From Dehalococcoidia bacterium (lineage in GTDB: Bacteria; Chloroflexota; Dehalococcoidia; DSTF01; JACRBR01), in assembly GCA_021462855.1 (NCBI GenBank), contig JAJTXQ010000067.1, forward strand, positions 66,860 to 130,859: a stretch of DNA of 64,000 nucleotides, read 5' to 3'. The notes beneath the pieces were generated by a model. It had not been told where the DNA came from and ran no database searches. It saw nothing but the letters and a program-made list of their open reading frames with translations. The first letter of the stretch is position 1, and each line of letters starts with the position of its first letter. The translations under genes and the position numbers were made by a program. Below are positions 30,649 through 36,389 of this stretch, one piece after another.

Positions 30649-31194
30649 TCAGTCGCCGAGCAGCGTCTTGTAGCCGAGCGCGATGATCTCCTCGGCGTAT
30701 TCGCTCCGCCAGCCCGGATTGGGGATGCGCATGGCGTGGTCGCGGTACCAGCGCTGGTACGTCAGGTATTCCTCTTCGAGCTTGCGCCGCCAGCCGTCCT
30801 CTTCTGCGAAGATCTCGGGCTCGCCCTCGTCCAGCCGCATGCCGGATTGCGTCGGGTCGATGTCGAGGTCCTCCTGCCAGTAGTCCGCGAGGTAGTCCAG
30901 GCAGTCCTCGAGGTCTTTGCGGCAATCGTTGATGAGCAGGCTCATCATGCCCTCCTGGTCGACCGGGTTGGCGCGAAGGCGCAGGTCGCGGCCGCACGGC
31001 TCGCAGACGATGACGAGGCGGCGGGCGTCGCATTCTTCTTTGTTCTTGCAGTTGTGCTGGCGCGGGGAGTACTCGGCGACGACGGGCGAACGGGTGTACC
31101 CCGCGACGAGGTTTGTGTTCAGCGAGCCGCAGCGAGGGCAGTTCAGCTTGTCGGAAAAGATGTCATCGATCGCCTTGTGCCAATCGATCTGCAT
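30649..31194 (-). CDS. Zinc-ribbon-like protein of unknown function
   Basis: The 181-residue protein has an N-terminal metal-site pattern: CPRCG near residue 20, HNCKNKEEC near 50 and CEPCGRDL near 65. Acidic, aromatic-rich helices follow (DLEDCLDYLADYWQEDLD, LEEEYLTYQRWYRDH). No catalytic motif is recognised; it may bind nucleic acid or act as a structural adaptor. GGAGGGAGG lies before MQIDWHK, so this ATG is chosen over one 12 codons upstream. It converges on hflX. Confidence 0.7.
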   Translation of the reverse strand: MQIDWHKAIDDIFSDKLNCPRCGSLNTNLVAGYTRSPVVAEYSPRQHNCKNKEECDARRLVIVCEPCGRDLRLRANPVDQEGMMSLLINDCRKDLEDCLDYLADYWQEDLDIDPTQSGMRLDEGEPEIFAEEDGWRRKLEEEYLTYQRWYRDHAMRIPNPGWRSEYAEEIIALGYKTLLGD

Positions 31195-31346
31195 CAGCCT
31201 CCCTCCTCGCGCCCGCGATTTCGGCCCCATGATAACGAAAGCGTATCCGCGCGCTCAACGGACGGCCGGGCGGCCAGGGAAGCCGGGGTACCCCCCTCAG
31301 GCAAGGCGATCGCGGCCGATGGTAATGGCAGGTAAGGGGGTGCTAC

Positions 31347-32168
31347 GTGGCTTCACGTCCGCCGCGGCTTCGGCTTGTCGAGCCCGACTCGACGGGTCCG
31401 TTGATTACGCAGGAAGGGCGACCGCCCGAGCGCCGCGCGCCGATTGCGTTCGGCCCGGTGGTCGTGCGGCTGCTCACCGTCGGCTGGAGCATCACCGTCA
31501 TCGCGGCGCTGTTCGACGCGTTCGCGGCGCTGCCGCAGTTGCCGTTCATGACGGCGATGGGCATGACGGCGGTGCTCGTGGCCGGCATGTTCGCCCTCAC
31601 GCGCGAGGGCGTGCCGGACTGGCGCGGCGACCCGGCCGTCAAGCCGGTGGAGGCGCCGCCGACGAACGACTTGCTCACCGACTTGCCGACGTTCAACTAC
31701 TTCCAGCAGCGGCTGTCTGACGAGTTTGACCGCACGCGCCGCATGGGCAAGCAGGTATCGGTCGTGCTGATCGACGTGAACAACCTGACCGCCGTCAACA
31801 AGGAGTACGGCGTCAAGGCGGGGGACGAGGTGCTGCGGCACGTCGCGCGCGCGGTGGATGGCACCCGGCGCTACAACGACGTGGTGGCGCGCCTGGGTGA
31901 CGACGAGTTCGGCGTGCTGTTGCTCGACTGCGCGGACGAGGGAGTGCGCGCGTTCATCGACCGGCTTGAGGACCGCCTGGCGAAGGAGTCGGCACTGGTC
32001 GAGGTGGCCGGGCGGGCGGTGTCGCTGTGGGCGGGGATCTGCTCGGGGACGGCGACATCGAGCCCGCAGATCACGCGCGCCGACGACGTGCTGGAGTCCG
32101 CGATGGCGGACCTGAACCATGCCAAGCAGGACCGCGAGCGTCGCCGCCGGCTGTGGCTATCGGCATGA
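31347..32168 (+). CDS. Membrane GGDEF-domain protein (GDDEF variant)
   Basis: The 273-residue protein has two membrane helices (about residues 35-57 and 66-87), then a GGDEF domain: LLTDLPTFNYFQQRL, VVLIDVNNLTAVNKEYG and VARLGDDEFGVLLLD. The second Gly of the signature is Asp (GDDEF), which should weaken or abolish diguanylate cyclase activity. The inhibitory RxxD site (RYND) stands exactly five residues upstream, so c-di-GMP binding is likely. The GTG start follows AAGGGGG. It lies 3 kb from a c-di-GMP riboswitch operon. Confidence 0.85.
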   Translation: MASRPPRLRLVEPDSTGPLITQEGRPPERRAPIAFGPVVVRLLTVGWSITVIAALFDAFAALPQLPFMTAMGMTAVLVAGMFALTREGVPDWRGDPAVKPVEAPPTNDLLTDLPTFNYFQQRLSDEFDRTRRMGKQVSVVLIDVNNLTAVNKEYGVKAGDEVLRHVARAVDGTRRYNDVVARLGDDEFGVLLLDCADEGVRAFIDRLEDRLAKESALVEVAGRAVSLWAGICSGTATSSPQITRADDVLESAMADLNHAKQDRERRRRLWLSA

Positions 32169-32237: not shown

Positions 32238-32732
32238 TCAGGCCGCGGGGCGGATGCCGAGGCGGAGCGCCAGCTCGTCGGCGTCGGCGGCATCGCCGCG
32301 GGTAAGGAGCTGGATCAGCGTGCCGATGCGGAGGATGGCGCCGAGCCCCGCGTCGCGGCGGAGGCTCGCGCCGAGCTGGGCCTCGTAGGCGAGGCGCAGC
32401 TTGACGCGGATCGACTCGTCGCGGGCGGCCTCGGCCCAGATCTCGATGAGCACGCGCCCGAGGGCTTCCGGGGCGAGCGGCGCGTGGTCGGCCGCTTCGA
32501 ACGGCGGGGCGAGCGCGCCGGCGGCCGCGAGCCGGTCGACCACCCCGGCGAGGACTGACGACTTTGTCCGGAAGTGGTGATACAGGCCGCCCTTGGAGCA
32601 CCCCGCTGCGAGGCAGATGTCGTCCATCGACGCGGCGGCGAAGCCCTTGAACGCAAAGACGGTCAGCGCCGCCTGCGTGATGGTATCGCGGGTGGCCCGG
32701 GAGCGCGCGGCCTGGGTGCGTGGCTGTTCCAT
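32238..32732 (-). CDS. TetR/AcrR-family regulator divergent from the hexapeptide unit
   Basis: The 164-residue regulator is short for the family. The HTH domain is clear: RDTITQAALTVFAFKGF, ASMDDICLAAGCSKGGLYHH and KSSVLAGVVDRL. The effector domain is compact. The start MEQPRTQAA was chosen because earlier codons in frame look non-coding; no strong ribosome site is seen. A perfect TetR-type palindrome lies 123 nt upstream, over the start site of the divergent mini-transcript, making this protein the obvious candidate repressor. Confidence 0.88.
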   Translation of the reverse strand: MEQPRTQAARSRATRDTITQAALTVFAFKGFAAASMDDICLAAGCSKGGLYHHFRTKSSVLAGVVDRLAAAGALAPPFEAADHAPLAPEALGRVLIEIWAEAARDESIRVKLRLAYEAQLGASLRRDAGLGAILRIGTLIQLLTRGDAADADELALRLGIRPAA

Positions 32733-32823
32733 GGGTCCACAGGTACTATCGGCCCCGAATGCGCTCGCTCGCAGCGACGGCGGCCGCCGCTGAGGTCGAT
32801 CTGAAATTCCTTGACACGGGGTG

Positions 32824-32853
32824 TTGACACGCCGGACGGGCCGGGCGTATAAA
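32824..32853 (+). promoter_or_regulatory. Strong promoter of the hexapeptide transcript
   Basis: TTGACA and TATAAA are separated by 18 bases, the closest to consensus in this window. A second TTGACA lies 12 bases further upstream. Confidence 0.8.
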
Positions 32854-32854
32854 G

Positions 32855-32872
32855 ATACCGACGAGTCGGTAT
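32855..32872. promoter_or_regulatory. TetR-type operator palindrome
   Basis: ATACCGAC-GA-GTCGGTAT is a perfect eight-base inverted repeat with a two-base centre, placed right after the -10 box and covering the expected transcription start. Its length and symmetry are those of TetR-family operators. Confidence 0.75.
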
Positions 32873-32952
32873 TGCACCGCTCGGTCACGTGAGCGGCGAG
32901 GCAGCCAGGGCCCTCGACGGAGGACCCGACCGAAGGAGAGGAGAGCAGCGAG

Positions 32953-32973
32953 ATGTTCCGCATTCAGTGGTAA
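32953..32973 (+). CDS. Hexapeptide mini-gene MFRIQW
   Basis: ATG is followed by five sense codons and TAA, encoding MFRIQW. AGGAG at 32939-32943 stands nine bases before the ATG, within a purine-rich GGAGAGGAGAG tract. The frame lies in a transcript of about 170 nt with its own strong promoter, operator and terminator and no other plausible gene. The peptide could be a signal, a leader whose translation controls the RNA, or the transcript could act as a small RNA. Gene-like signals are strong; the product is unproven. Confidence 0.5.
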   Translation: MFRIQW

Positions 32974-33000
32974 TCCCTACGGCTTCAAGCCTGACAGCGG

Positions 33001-33033
33001 ACAGGGACTCCCACACGGGAGTCCCTGTTCTTG
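33001..33033 (+). terminator. Terminator of the hexapeptide transcript
   Basis: A perfect 12-bp stem (ACAGGGACTCCC and complement) with loop ACAC is followed by TCTTGT. It stands 27 nt after the hexapeptide stop and just before the stop of the convergent HD-GYP gene. Confidence 0.85.
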
Positions 33034-33054: not shown

Positions 33055-34563
33055 TCAGGCAGCCTGTTGCTGTTGCTGGCGCGGAGCCGCGGCGGCGTGG
33101 TGCGCGGACTCTTCCTCCTCGCCGCTCCAGCGGATCTCGACGATGCGCTCCCACGCGAGCAGGAATGCCTGCACGCAGTGCGGGTCGAATTGGGTGCCGC
33201 TGCAGCGGATGATCTCGTCGCGCGACGCCTCGACCGAGAGCGCCTTGCGGTACGGGCGGTCGGAGGTCATGGCATCGAACGTGTCGGCGAGGACGAAGAT
33301 CCGGGCGCCCAGAGGGATTTCCTCGGCCGCGAGCCCGTTCGGGTACCCCTTGCCGTCGTAGCGCTCGTGGTGGGCGAGCACGATGGTCGCCGCGCCGCTC
33401 AGGAAGCCGATCTCCTTGATCATGTCGTGGCCAATCTGGGGGTGACGCCGCATGTCGACCCACTCCTCGTCGGTGAGCGGACCGGGCTTGTGGAGGATCG
33501 TGTCCGACACGCCGATCTTGCCGATGTCGTGGAGCAGGCCACCGCGCTGCATGTTCACCCAGTCCTCGGTGCCGGGCTCGACGTGCATGTGATACGCGAT
33601 TTCCATCATGTACCGGGCGACGCGGAGCGAGTGGCCCTTGGTCTCGCGGTCGCGGGCGTCGAGCGCCGAGACGAGCGCTTCGAGCGTGCCGTCGTACGTC
33701 TCGCGCAGCTGGTCAGCCATGTGCAGGATGTCGCGGTTGGCCCTGGAGAGCTCGCGGTTGCGCTTGTTGAGTTCCTCGACGTGCTGGGCGGTCTTGTCGA
33801 TGTACTGCTTGATCGAGAAGCGCATCATGAGCGGCGGGGCGACGAAGGCGAGGACGCCGGCGTAGCCCAGGCCGTCGTAGGCGACGGCGAGCGCGAGCCC
33901 GAGCATGCCAAACACGACATAATGCGGCAGAAGCCACTCGAACTTCTCGCGGAACACCGTGATGATGGACGCCCGGGTTGCCAGGCTGACGGCGGCAGCG
34001 ACGAGCGCGCTGTTCAGGAGGTAATACGCGACGACGGCCGCGAGGGCGATCGGGATGAGCCAGCCGTTAATCGGCAGGCCGCCGCCGGCCAGGTGCAGAC
34101 CGCCGGCGATGACGAGGGCGGTAGCCACGTTCACAAGCACCACCGAGCCGACGTTGAAGAGCCGCTTGTACCAGGCGCCGCCGCCGATATCGGTCGCCAT
34201 TGCGGCGAAGGGACTGACGATGGCGGCGCCCGCCGGGCCGAACAAGAAGGCGACGGCGAAGTCGCCGACGGCGGCGATCGACACCGTGGTGTCGCCGTAG
34301 ATGGTGATCTTCGTGCGGCCGAAGGCGATGGCGAGCAGGCCGAGGATGATCAGCCCCGGGATGTCGTCGGTGTCCAGCCTGGGCGCGAAGGCGCCGACGG
34401 AGAGCAGGCCGACGGCAAAGACGCCGAGCACGTACACCAGCGCGCGCGCCGGAAGGCGCTCGGCGGCGTCCGCCGAATCATCCGCGATGCGAAGGGCGAC
34501 GGGCGCCGGCGTACCGCCGGAATCCGGCACGGGCGGCCCGCCCTGCAAGGGAGCGTTCAGCAT
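33055..34563 (-). CDS. Membrane HD-GYP c-di-GMP phosphodiesterase
   Basis: The 502-residue protein has about eight membrane helices in its first 270 residues, a coiled-coil linker (VEELNKRNRELSRANRD), then an HD-GYP domain. HD-GYP motifs are GHSLRVARYM, LLHDIGKIGV, HPQIGHDM, HHERYDGKGYPNGL and LADTFDAMTSDRPYRKAL. All HD residues and the GYP are present, so hydrolysis of c-di-GMP is expected. The tail is Gln/Ala-rich. MLNAPLQGG was chosen because GGCGGAG precedes it. It follows the sigma factor gene by 77 nt, in the riboswitch-led operon. Confidence 0.93.
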   Translation of the reverse strand: MLNAPLQGGPPVPDSGGTPAPVALRIADDSADAAERLPARALVYVLGVFAVGLLSVGAFAPRLDTDDIPGLIILGLLAIAFGRTKITIYGDTTVSIAAVGDFAVAFLFGPAGAAIVSPFAAMATDIGGGAWYKRLFNVGSVVLVNVATALVIAGGLHLAGGGLPINGWLIPIALAAVVAYYLLNSALVAAAVSLATRASIITVFREKFEWLLPHYVVFGMLGLALAVAYDGLGYAGVLAFVAPPLMMRFSIKQYIDKTAQHVEELNKRNRELSRANRDILHMADQLRETYDGTLEALVSALDARDRETKGHSLRVARYMMEIAYHMHVEPGTEDWVNMQRGGLLHDIGKIGVSDTILHKPGPLTDEEWVDMRRHPQIGHDMIKEIGFLSGAATIVLAHHERYDGKGYPNGLAAEEIPLGARIFVLADTFDAMTSDRPYRKALSVEASRDEIIRCSGTQFDPHCVQAFLLAWERIVEIRWSGEEEESAHHAAAAPRQQQQQAA

Positions 34564-34640
34564 ATCTCCGCCAAGGAATGCGCAGCCCCGATCGCGGAGG
34601 CTCAACTGAATATCGGCATCGGCGGGGAGGCGCCGTAGGC

Positions 34641-35366
34641 TCAGGCGGCCACTTCGAACTGGGCGTTCAGATACCGCTTCAGGTTCGCCAGGATGCGCTT
34701 GTGAAGCTGGCAGACGCGGGACTCGGAAAGCCCCATCATCTCGCCAATCTCGTGGAACGGGCGAGATTCCGCGTATCGGAGCTTCAGGATAGCGCGGTCG
34801 CGCGGGTTCAGGTGGCCGAGCGCCTCGTCGAGCAGCGTGAGCGAGGCGGCGTGGTCGGCAGCCTTCGCCGGGTCGCTGAGGTCGTCCTCGTCCGGCGGGT
34901 CGAGCGATGGCGCGCCCTCGCCGGTGCGGTCCTGGAGCGCGTGCTCCAGCGAAATAAACTTCGATGACGTGTGGCGCATCACCGTCTGGAGGTGCTCGAC
35001 CGGCACGCCGAGGCGGAACGCCACCTCTTTCGGCGTCGGCCAGCGGCCGAGCGTGGCCGAGAGCTCCTGCGACGCGGCATCGATCTCGCGGGCGCTGCGG
35101 CGCACGGAGCGCGGCAGCGGGTCCATCTTGCGGATCGCATCGAGGATGCTGCCGCGGATGCGCCGCACGGCGAAGCTGGCGAAGCTGGTGCCCCGTGTCT
35201 CATCGAACGCATCGACGGCCTGGATGAGGCCTTCGATGCCGTAGCCGAGCGCGTCTTCGCGGTCGAGGCCGAGGGTCTTCTGGTTGTCCGTGGACATGCG
35301 GCTGACGACGAACGCCACCAGCGGCATGTGCTGCATGATCATGTCCTGGCGAGCAGAGCTGCGCAT
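34641..35366 (-). CDS. FliA/WhiG-type RNA polymerase sigma factor
   Basis: The 241-residue alternative sigma-70 factor contains region 2 (HMPLVAFVVSRM, YGIEGLIQAVDAFDE, TSFASFAVRRIRGSILDAIR), a region 3 helix (RWPTPKEVAFRLGVPVEHL) and a region 4 HTH (FHEIGEMMGLSESRVCQLHK). The RGSILDAIRKMDPLPRSVR stretch is diagnostic of the FliA/WhiG/SigD branch. No flagellar genes are seen here, so the regulon is open. The ATG follows GGAGGGG, and the upstream leader carries a c-di-GMP-I aptamer and a terminator hairpin, so expression should respond to c-di-GMP. Confidence 0.94.
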   Translation of the reverse strand: MRSSARQDMIMQHMPLVAFVVSRMSTDNQKTLGLDREDALGYGIEGLIQAVDAFDETRGTSFASFAVRRIRGSILDAIRKMDPLPRSVRRSAREIDAASQELSATLGRWPTPKEVAFRLGVPVEHLQTVMRHTSSKFISLEHALQDRTGEGAPSLDPPDEDDLSDPAKAADHAASLTLLDEALGHLNPRDRAILKLRYAESRPFHEIGEMMGLSESRVCQLHKRILANLKRYLNAQFEVAA

Positions 35367-35389
35367 GCGGGGCCCCCTCCACCGAACGT

Positions 35390-35424
35390 ACAAATGCCGC
35401 CATGCCGGAGTCCGGCAGGCGGCA
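35390..35424 (-). terminator. Attenuator terminator between riboswitch and sigma gene
   Basis: On the minus strand a two-part hairpin (TGCCGCC with GGCGGCA outside, TGCCGG with CCGGCA inside, one bulged T) is followed by TTTGT. It lies between the aptamer and the ribosome site. Confidence 0.75.
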
Positions 35425-35463: not shown

Positions 35464-35542
35464 TCTTCGGCAGCCCGGCTATCCGCGTGGCGGACCCGTG
35501 GCTTTGCGTCCCCGCATTTCAGCGGGTTTGCCTGTTTCGGAC
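35464..35542 (-). promoter_or_regulatory. Cyclic di-GMP-I (GEMM-I) riboswitch
   Basis: The minus strand reads CCGAAACAGGCAAACC, a GAAA-capped hairpin, GGGACGCAAAGCC, a second stem, then TAGCCGGGCTGCC. This is the full GEMM-I consensus, including GCAAACC, GACGCAAAGCC and the closing AGCCGGG. The aptamer is about 100 nt upstream of the sigma gene and is followed by a terminator hairpin, so control is probably by transcription termination. Which ligand state permits read-through cannot be read directly. Confidence 0.93.
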
Positions 35543-35765: not shown

Positions 35766-36389
35766 ATGGCTCAGCGGCTTGTAGACAGGTTCGAACAGCG
35801 CAAGCTCACGCGCGCGAAGCTCATCGACGCCGCGCTCAAGCTCTTTTCTACGAGCGGGTATGAGCATGCGACCGTGGACGACATCTCGCACGAGGCCGGA
35901 TACTCCAAGGGCGCGTATTACTTCCACTTCTCGACCAAGGAGGACATCCTCCTCGAGCTTCTCCGCATGTGGACGGAGGGGCGGACCGCGATCGTGGCCG
36001 GCGGCGGAGCGGCGAGCGACGGTATTCGCGAGACGATCGAGCGATTCTTCTCGTACGAGGACGCGCAGTGGCACGCTGTGCTCCTGGAGTTCTGGTCGCA
36101 AGCCGTGCGCGTGCCCGAGGTGAGCAAGCGCCTGAGCCAGGCGTACGCCGGTTGGCGCAAAGACCTCTCCGAGGCGTTCGCGCGCGCGGCCTCGGAGGAG
36201 CGTCTGCACGTGGCTTCCCCGGAGGACGCCGCGTCGGTGGTGCTCGCCGCGCACGACGGGCTTGCCGTGCAGTTCGCGATCGGCTCCCCCGGCGGCCGCG
36301 CGATGACCGCCGGCGAGCTTGCCGCTTCGATCATCGCGCCGCTCGAGTCGGCCGAGCCGGCGGCGGAGCGCCGCAGGATCGCGCGCTAG
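35766..36389 (+). CDS. TetR/AcrR-family transcriptional regulator
   Basis: The 207-residue regulator has RAKLIDAALKLFSTSGYEHA, TVDDISHEAGYSKGAYYFHF and KEDILLELLRMW, a standard TetR HTH, followed by the effector-binding domain. A GGGG tract precedes the ATG. It is divergent from the riboswitch-sigma operon and could regulate it or the hydroxyacid dehydrogenase operon downstream; no clear palindrome was found. Confidence 0.9.
   Translation: MAQRLVDRFEQRKLTRAKLIDAALKLFSTSGYEHATVDDISHEAGYSKGAYYFHFSTKEDILLELLRMWTEGRTAIVAGGGAASDGIRETIERFFSYEDAQWHAVLLEFWSQAVRVPEVSKRLSQAYAGWRKDLSEAFARAASEERLHVASPEDAASVVLAAHDGLAVQFAIGSPGGRAMTAGELAASIIAPLESAEPAAERRRIAR

Follow-up and report, generated by a model that had tools for sequence, protein, structure and literature searches.

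Can six codons with a promoter, an operator and a terminator of their own be a gene, and, if so, is it the peptide or the RNA that counts? The question was raised by an earlier note on 64,000 nucleotides of a contig from a Dehalococcoidia bacterium (the window; the genome containing it is 3.0 Mb), which described a lone hexapeptide gene under TetR control and proposed a peptide, a small RNA or a translated leader as its product. Genes of 6–9 codons escape annotation and gene finders, few are known in bacteria, and hardly any member of this class has been cultured or is open to genetic work. Our comparison over 24 genera revealed conservation at the peptide level in units that have their own promoter, operator, Shine-Dalgarno sequence (SD) and terminator. 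Judged from this comparison of sequences, the stand-alone six-residue gene is real and is part of a class-wide, unannotated family of ultra-short peptide genes. The gene described by the earlier note was thus confirmed, and it is one member of a family that extends through the class and includes longer, signal-peptide-like forms.

All the elements of the unit are present in the sequence exactly as had been noted. On the forward strand, the promoter consists of TTGACA (32824–32829) and TATAAA (32848–32853) separated by 18 bases (32824–32853 overall), with an extra TTGACA 5′ of it at 32812–32817. It is followed by a perfect, strandless palindrome of the TetR-operator type, ATACCGACGAGTCGGTAT, which reads ATACCGAC-GA-GTCGGTAT (32855–32872) and is conserved in relatives. 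A purine-rich SD region, GAAGGAGAGGAG (32932–32943, forward), precedes the gene for MFRIQW (ATG TTC CGC ATT CAG TGG TAA, six codons and a stop; 32953–32973, forward), which is supported by orthologous peptides. The intrinsic terminator (33001–33028, forward) has 12 perfect pairs (arms 33001–33012 and 33017–33028), a 4-base loop and, after the stem, TTCTT, a weak T-run. The predicted transcript is monocistronic, about 170 nt long, and folds better than its shuffles (z −3.2), mostly through the terminator. A search of Rfam at a relaxed threshold with the peptide unit gave a sole match, eukaryotic and at chance level, so the unit lies outside the known RNA families. The earlier description, a self-contained transcript that bears a TetR operator and has a tiny peptide as its sole product, was confirmed at this level.

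The arrangement of the flanking genes was also as had been noted. A TetR/AcrR-family repressor of 164 aa, starting at the ATG at 32732 and presumed to regulate the unit, is divergent from it (32238–32732, reverse; Pfam TetR_N 5e-13), and the downstream gene, encoding an HD-GYP c-di-GMP phosphodiesterase with an N-terminal membrane domain (33055–34605, reverse; Pfam HD_5 4e-33, weak MASE9), is convergent with it. The terminator may have a double use, serving the HD-GYP gene as well. Upstream of the HD-GYP gene lies a sigma-70-family factor with regions 2, 3 and 4 (34641–35393, reverse; Pfam); the two are apparently in one operon, which is headed by a c-di-GMP-I-GGC riboswitch (35465–35541, reverse; Rfam RF03167, 71 bits). 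On the other side, a GGDEF diguanylate cyclase (31347–32168, forward; Pfam GGDEF 1e-27) is convergent with the TetR gene. A GGDEF gene also neighbours the locus in L004, making this a local c-di-GMP neighbourhood of the window's family (f1). A second TetR with a BetI-type C-terminal domain (35766–36389, forward) lies just upstream of the riboswitch region, and its orthologues are conserved beside the locus in f1 and f2. A conserved zinc-ribbon-like protein (CPRC...CxxC...CEPCGR; 30649–31230, reverse) had no Pfam match; in both f3 and f4, genes resembling it also adjoin the peptide/HD-GYP locus.

When 40 relatives were searched at the DNA level, three family members proved to have the promoter/operator block. 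Units at the same place in the family encode MTFRVSW (G001; an upstream GTG is an alternative start, giving MKMTFRVSW), MTFRVQW (G002) and MTFRITW (G003), each with AAGGAGG 5′ and a terminator 3′ of the ORF. A peptide-first pattern search of 393 genomes of the class returned four genomes (the window's and G001–G003) and one chance match. MFRILW (G302, f18) was rejected as chance, as it sits in a coding-like stretch with an SD spacing of 3 bases. Further units were reached via the TetR and HD-GYP orthologues: MVQRVSWG (G004) and MVQRATWG (G006, G007) in the same family, and MKKYHWF (G010), MVRGWSDE (G009) and MAYGWDD (G011) in the same order. Two relatives have longer ORFs, MKKLAGIASAALVVAAVAATQTPVLLWISWWWR (G008) and MKLMWTGMAAALLVATALAPYAPTIMGIRVR (G012), the latter ending in GIRVR without a C-terminal Trp.

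The class was surveyed with a profile (A2) built on the membrane domain of HD-GYP, and the sequence 3′ of every match was inspected. The unit is present at 34 of the 37 loci with a single-module HD-GYP gene (8 families, 24 genera), and in every linked locus it points toward the 3′ end of that gene. Units from the survey encode MSVSWDG (f25), MTFDITWGE (f28), MARGSWWG (f34) and MKLVWTSLAVALLVATAVAPYAPTILGLRW (f4), besides those of f36. The peptides are short, and nearly all have Trp at or near the C-end (at least 24 genera). The SDs of relatives read AAGGAGG, AGGAGG or GGGAGGTG, and 27 of the 28 units examined have TTGACA/T at the corresponding position. Of 23 genus-level units, 20 passed a strict filter (SD, spacing, 4–35 codons and Trp among the last five residues), against an expectation of 0.21 from shuffles that preserve dinucleotides; because the units were picked by eye before the filter was set, this result describes the family more than it tests it blindly. 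A doubtful member, MALW (G041 of f28; L148/L097), is encoded at the equivalent place by ATG GCC CTC TGG TAA, with an AAAGGAG SD and a stem-loop and no clear promoter; a gene of four residues is only a possibility.

The peptide is absent from three f36 loci (G091, G308, G347) despite the presence of HD-GYP and TetR genes, and there is no unit at loci with tandem HD-GYP paralogues (f61, f55, f11). Outside the class, twelve loci of the phylum with the HD-GYP membrane domain were examined, and none had a convincing tiny ORF 3′ of the gene. Close relatives of the window's HD-GYP protein come from Dehalococcoidia/Chloroflexi MAGs. The HD-GYP tree unites the Dehalococcoidia proteins in a single clade (100/100), with units on most of its deep branches and missing from the paralogue clades. 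This distribution fits one early origin of the unit with later losses, without proving it.

The family has two forms. Leaderless ORFs of 6–9 residues occur in f1, f3, f25, f34 and several others, and a leader-like segment is found in f4, G008 and most of f36; the majority of f36 members encode 30 residues, for example MARLRMLLVAGALAAVAVVSTAAPMLTISW. In these long forms (about 30 residues) the N-terminal half is signal-peptide-like and the C-end resembles the short peptides (...STAAPMLTISW); judged by eye, they resemble signal peptides that carry an SxA/AP-type site. Short forms also occur within f36, MAKIIRW (G049) and MARNITWED (G322), at the same place and with the same GGGAGGTG SD as the long ones, and the close relatives of G049 and G322 carry MAK/MAR-(hydrophobic)-xIxW where the short forms stand. 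The long and short forms have in common the [I/V]-x-W end and, in f36, the M-A-K/R N-terminus.

Several comparisons bear on whether the peptide or the RNA is conserved. In G000–G003 the peptide is kept despite codon changes; the earlier note had proposed conservation of FRIQW with synonymous changes as the mark of a peptide, and the outcome in relatives supports one. The frame and the operator, the absence of which from relatives the note had named as evidence against its reading, are both conserved. In f1, the promoter, operator, SD and ORF align, while the leaders vary in length and sequence (about 30 to 130 bases from operator to SD across relatives) and the terminators have no common sequence. 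A profile of the long form (A3), a search that makes no use of HD-GYP and is free of the by-eye weakness, found exactly one copy in each of 15 f36 genomes and a tandem pair in G318. The long forms change mostly synonymously (pS 0.42 and pN 0.24 summed over pairs; pN/pS about 0.55), and the C-terminal Trp is invariant in the nine aligned. In G318 (L169), two complete units lie in tandem about 420 bases apart, between dnaG and the HD-GYP gene, both having a TTGACA, an SD and a terminator of their own, and their ORFs differ only synonymously. As the ORF is kept, the differences are synonymous and the leaders and terminators diverge, it is a peptide that is conserved, and not an RNA of defined sequence. 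Of the three products proposed at the outset, the peptide is therefore favoured over the small RNA and the leader.

TetR control, which had been claimed for the window, is well supported there by the predicted operator. With a TetR-family gene beside it and a palindromic operator across its promoter, the unit is a candidate for TetR regulation. The palindrome at 32855–32872 is the only match in the window at up to 2 mismatches (0.23 expected). It is kept at the same place in all seven family members that have the locus, and in five of these seven genomes (the window's, G001, G004, G006 and G007) it is single genome-wide at up to 1 mismatch, so the f1 TetR looks dedicated to its own locus. TetR orthologues occupy the same position in G002, G004, G006 and G007, and similar palindromes overlap the promoters in f2, f28, f34 and much of f36. 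However, units of f3 and several of f36, as well as those of G322, G264, G337 and G318, have no recognisable adjacent operator or TetR, and a single ancestral TetR is unsupported, as the TetRs of f1 and f36 form separate clades. TetR control is thus common in the family, but does not define it. A Foldseek search with the TetR model gave generic TetR matches only, with no hint of a ligand.

The downstream gene, previously taken as a mere boundary, is indeed convergent, but it is also the constant partner of the unit. The HD-GYP protein has an intact HD_5 domain with invariant HD and HHExxDGxGYP motifs. In its AlphaFold model (pLDDT 74 on average, with higher values in the membrane helices), the C-end matches HD-GYP phosphodiesterases of the PDB, and the N-end matches the ECF S-components FolT and RibU (TM-score on target about 0.7; Foldseek E 0.01 to 0.1, probability about 1). 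The membrane domain (residues about 90–250, weak MASE9 in Pfam) thus has a predicted ECF S-component-like fold; its profile also matches much longer proteins elsewhere in Chloroflexota, and a vitamin-transporter fold as a sensor input domain merits separate study. The fold does not imply peptide binding, because the same sensor-type membrane domain exists without the tiny ORF outside the class and in paralogues within it. The outer neighbour of the locus varies (gp193 in f3/f4, TetR in f1/f2, DnaG in G318 of f36) while the adjacency to HD-GYP is kept, which suggests a functional tie between the peptide and HD-GYP; the shared terminator could explain part of this linkage. The riboswitch is at the same place in the f1, f2 and f4 relatives searched and directly upstream of the HD-GYP gene in f28 (L101), a position that implies feedback of c-di-GMP on its own phosphodiesterase.

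From this anatomy, conservation and linkage, the operator and the two peptide forms, we infer a route through translation, TetR repression, export, a receptor and a role between cells. The dedicated TetR on the promoter would keep the unit off until a ligand frees it, possibly the peptide itself, a metabolite or c-di-GMP. The strong SD would then drive translation into MFRIQW, which in most of this order would be made ready, without a leader, as 6–9 residues. In other lineages, the same [I/V]-x-W C-end would be made behind a hydrophobic, signal-peptide-like segment, a form that points outside the cell. As both forms have the same kind of C-end, the active part would be the last few residues. 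The likeliest target may be the convergent HD-GYP phosphodiesterase, through its membrane domain with the fold of the ligand-binding S-components; the peptide would alter the breakdown of c-di-GMP and, through it, how the riboswitch-headed sigma/HD-GYP operon is expressed. The neighbours scanned by Pfam included neither a peptide exporter nor a modifying enzyme. We consider it about as likely as not that the very short Trp-containing peptide, encoded by an autonomous gene, acts as a signal within a c-di-GMP control module. The fuller proposal, of an undescribed peptide-to-c-di-GMP system in which leaderless and signal-peptide Trp-peptides are sensed by an S-component-like domain fused to HD-GYP, with TetR gating production, is tentative and rather doubtful.

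A peptide signal is the most likely reading, and three others stand beside it. MFRIQW may be an intracellular ligand of the neighbouring TetR, inducing or co-repressing its own promoter in a self-contained feedback switch with no role between cells. Artificial short peptides acting on TetR are known (PMC4014509), and both the divergent TetR gene and an operator that is unique in several genomes would suit such a switch; we consider it unlikely, given the units with no recognisable TetR or operator beside them, the TetRs of separate clades that are not shown to be one lineage, and long forms that would exit the cytoplasm. The peptide could instead act in the membrane, similarly to a type I toxin: the hydrophobic form of about 30 residues would be ancestral and membrane-inserted, perhaps acting on HD-GYP, and the 6–9-residue forms would be shortened derivatives. 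The single hydrophobic stretch of the long forms, the tandem duplication of a whole unit, which is typical for such genes, and Trp, common at the membrane interface, agree with this. Yet the short forms cannot span a membrane and are conserved as peptides over many genera, and what both forms have in common is the C-end and not hydrophobicity, which makes a membrane effector quite unlikely. Tested as a type I toxin on its sequence, the family has the hydrophobicity in the long form only, an antisense RNA being visible only in RNA data.

The third reading, an antimicrobial or RiPP-type product, sees in the short ORF a minimal precursor that enzymes from other loci would process, in the manner of microcin C and the biarylitides. 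The size range, the conserved aromatic residue and the frequent TetR control of such products are in keeping with it, but no P450, ThiF/MccB-like, radical SAM, transporter or immunity gene was found by Pfam within about 12 kb, the constant neighbour is a c-di-GMP enzyme, and the long forms bring their own signal-like segment; we regard it as improbable. A regulatory small RNA or translated leader, with the peptide sequence irrelevant, would account for the short monocistronic transcript, its strong fold and the lack of an Rfam match. The preserved frame and peptide, the variable leaders and dissimilar terminators, the synonymous differences between the G318 duplicates and the lack of anything downstream for a leader to control render it very improbable. 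An attenuator leader was rejected, as only a convergent gene lies downstream. We also rejected a minigene that sequesters tRNA through a short ORF ending in a Trp codon, since 30-codon forms occur at the same place and Trp is often not last.

The peptide-to-c-di-GMP system, if true, would be the first case of peptide signalling put forward for Dehalococcoidia; the literature searched, of partial coverage, described neither this locus nor any peptide signalling in these bacteria. With HD-GYP as the receptor, a peptide signal would be tied directly to c-di-GMP breakdown, and an orphan S-component-like sensor would gain a class of ligand. Since leader-bearing and leaderless forms of seemingly one peptide occur in one family at one locus, the origin of leaderless signals becomes approachable. 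The family suggests a new type of ultra-small signalling-type peptides.

By layout, the nearest known kind appears to be the leaderless communication peptides (LCPs), such as SIP of Streptococcus pyogenes, which is encoded by an ORF of 24 bp and acts with RopB (PMC10518010, PMC6565748). The likeness extends to the ultra-small ORF, the strong SD, a ready peptide without a leader and a divergent transcription factor (PMC10518010, PMC6565748), as well as to a species-specific, aromatic-rich peptide code. In contrast, the divergent factor here is TetR and not an Rgg/RopB TPR receptor, the host is from Chloroflexota and not Firmicutes, HD-GYP is a constant neighbour, and the same family has leader-bearing members. 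Although the size of the leaderless ORF agrees with that of LCPs (about 8–10 codons), we reject membership, because the Rgg C-terminal peptide-binding TPR (TIGR01716) was found in none of 20 genomes, while the positive control, Lactococcus lactis, matched. The SHP peptides are also short hydrophobic propeptides with an N-terminal export segment, active C-terminal residues and an adjacent regulator (PMC13361665), and in SHP/Rgg group III the genes for peptide and regulator converge (PMC13361665, review). The peptides described here differ in lacking that receptor family, in ending with Trp and in their tie to c-di-GMP turnover.

The precursor of microcin C, MccA, has seven residues and is likewise a stand-alone tiny ORF of similar size. 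It ends in Asn and not Trp, and its adenylating enzyme MccB and exporter MccC have no counterparts nearby; as the earlier note had observed for MccB, no such ThiF-fold enzyme was found by Pfam among 18 neighbouring proteins (19.7–47.6 kb, minus 39.8–41.8 and 43.5–45.4 kb). The biarylitide precursor BytA, five residues from an 18-bp gene, is another minimal gene that evades annotation, with an aromatic residue essential to the family (PMC13417212). The window's peptide has six residues and another sequence pattern, and there is no cytochrome P450 among the Pfam-scanned neighbours. In the DSF/RpfC/RpfG system of Xanthomonas, a fatty-acid signal, sensed by a histidine kinase, acts through an HD-GYP phosphodiesterase. 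The locus described here would resemble it as a cell-to-cell signal acting on c-di-GMP via an HD-GYP phosphodiesterase, but with a peptide and an S-component-like membrane domain proposed in place of the fatty acid and the kinase.
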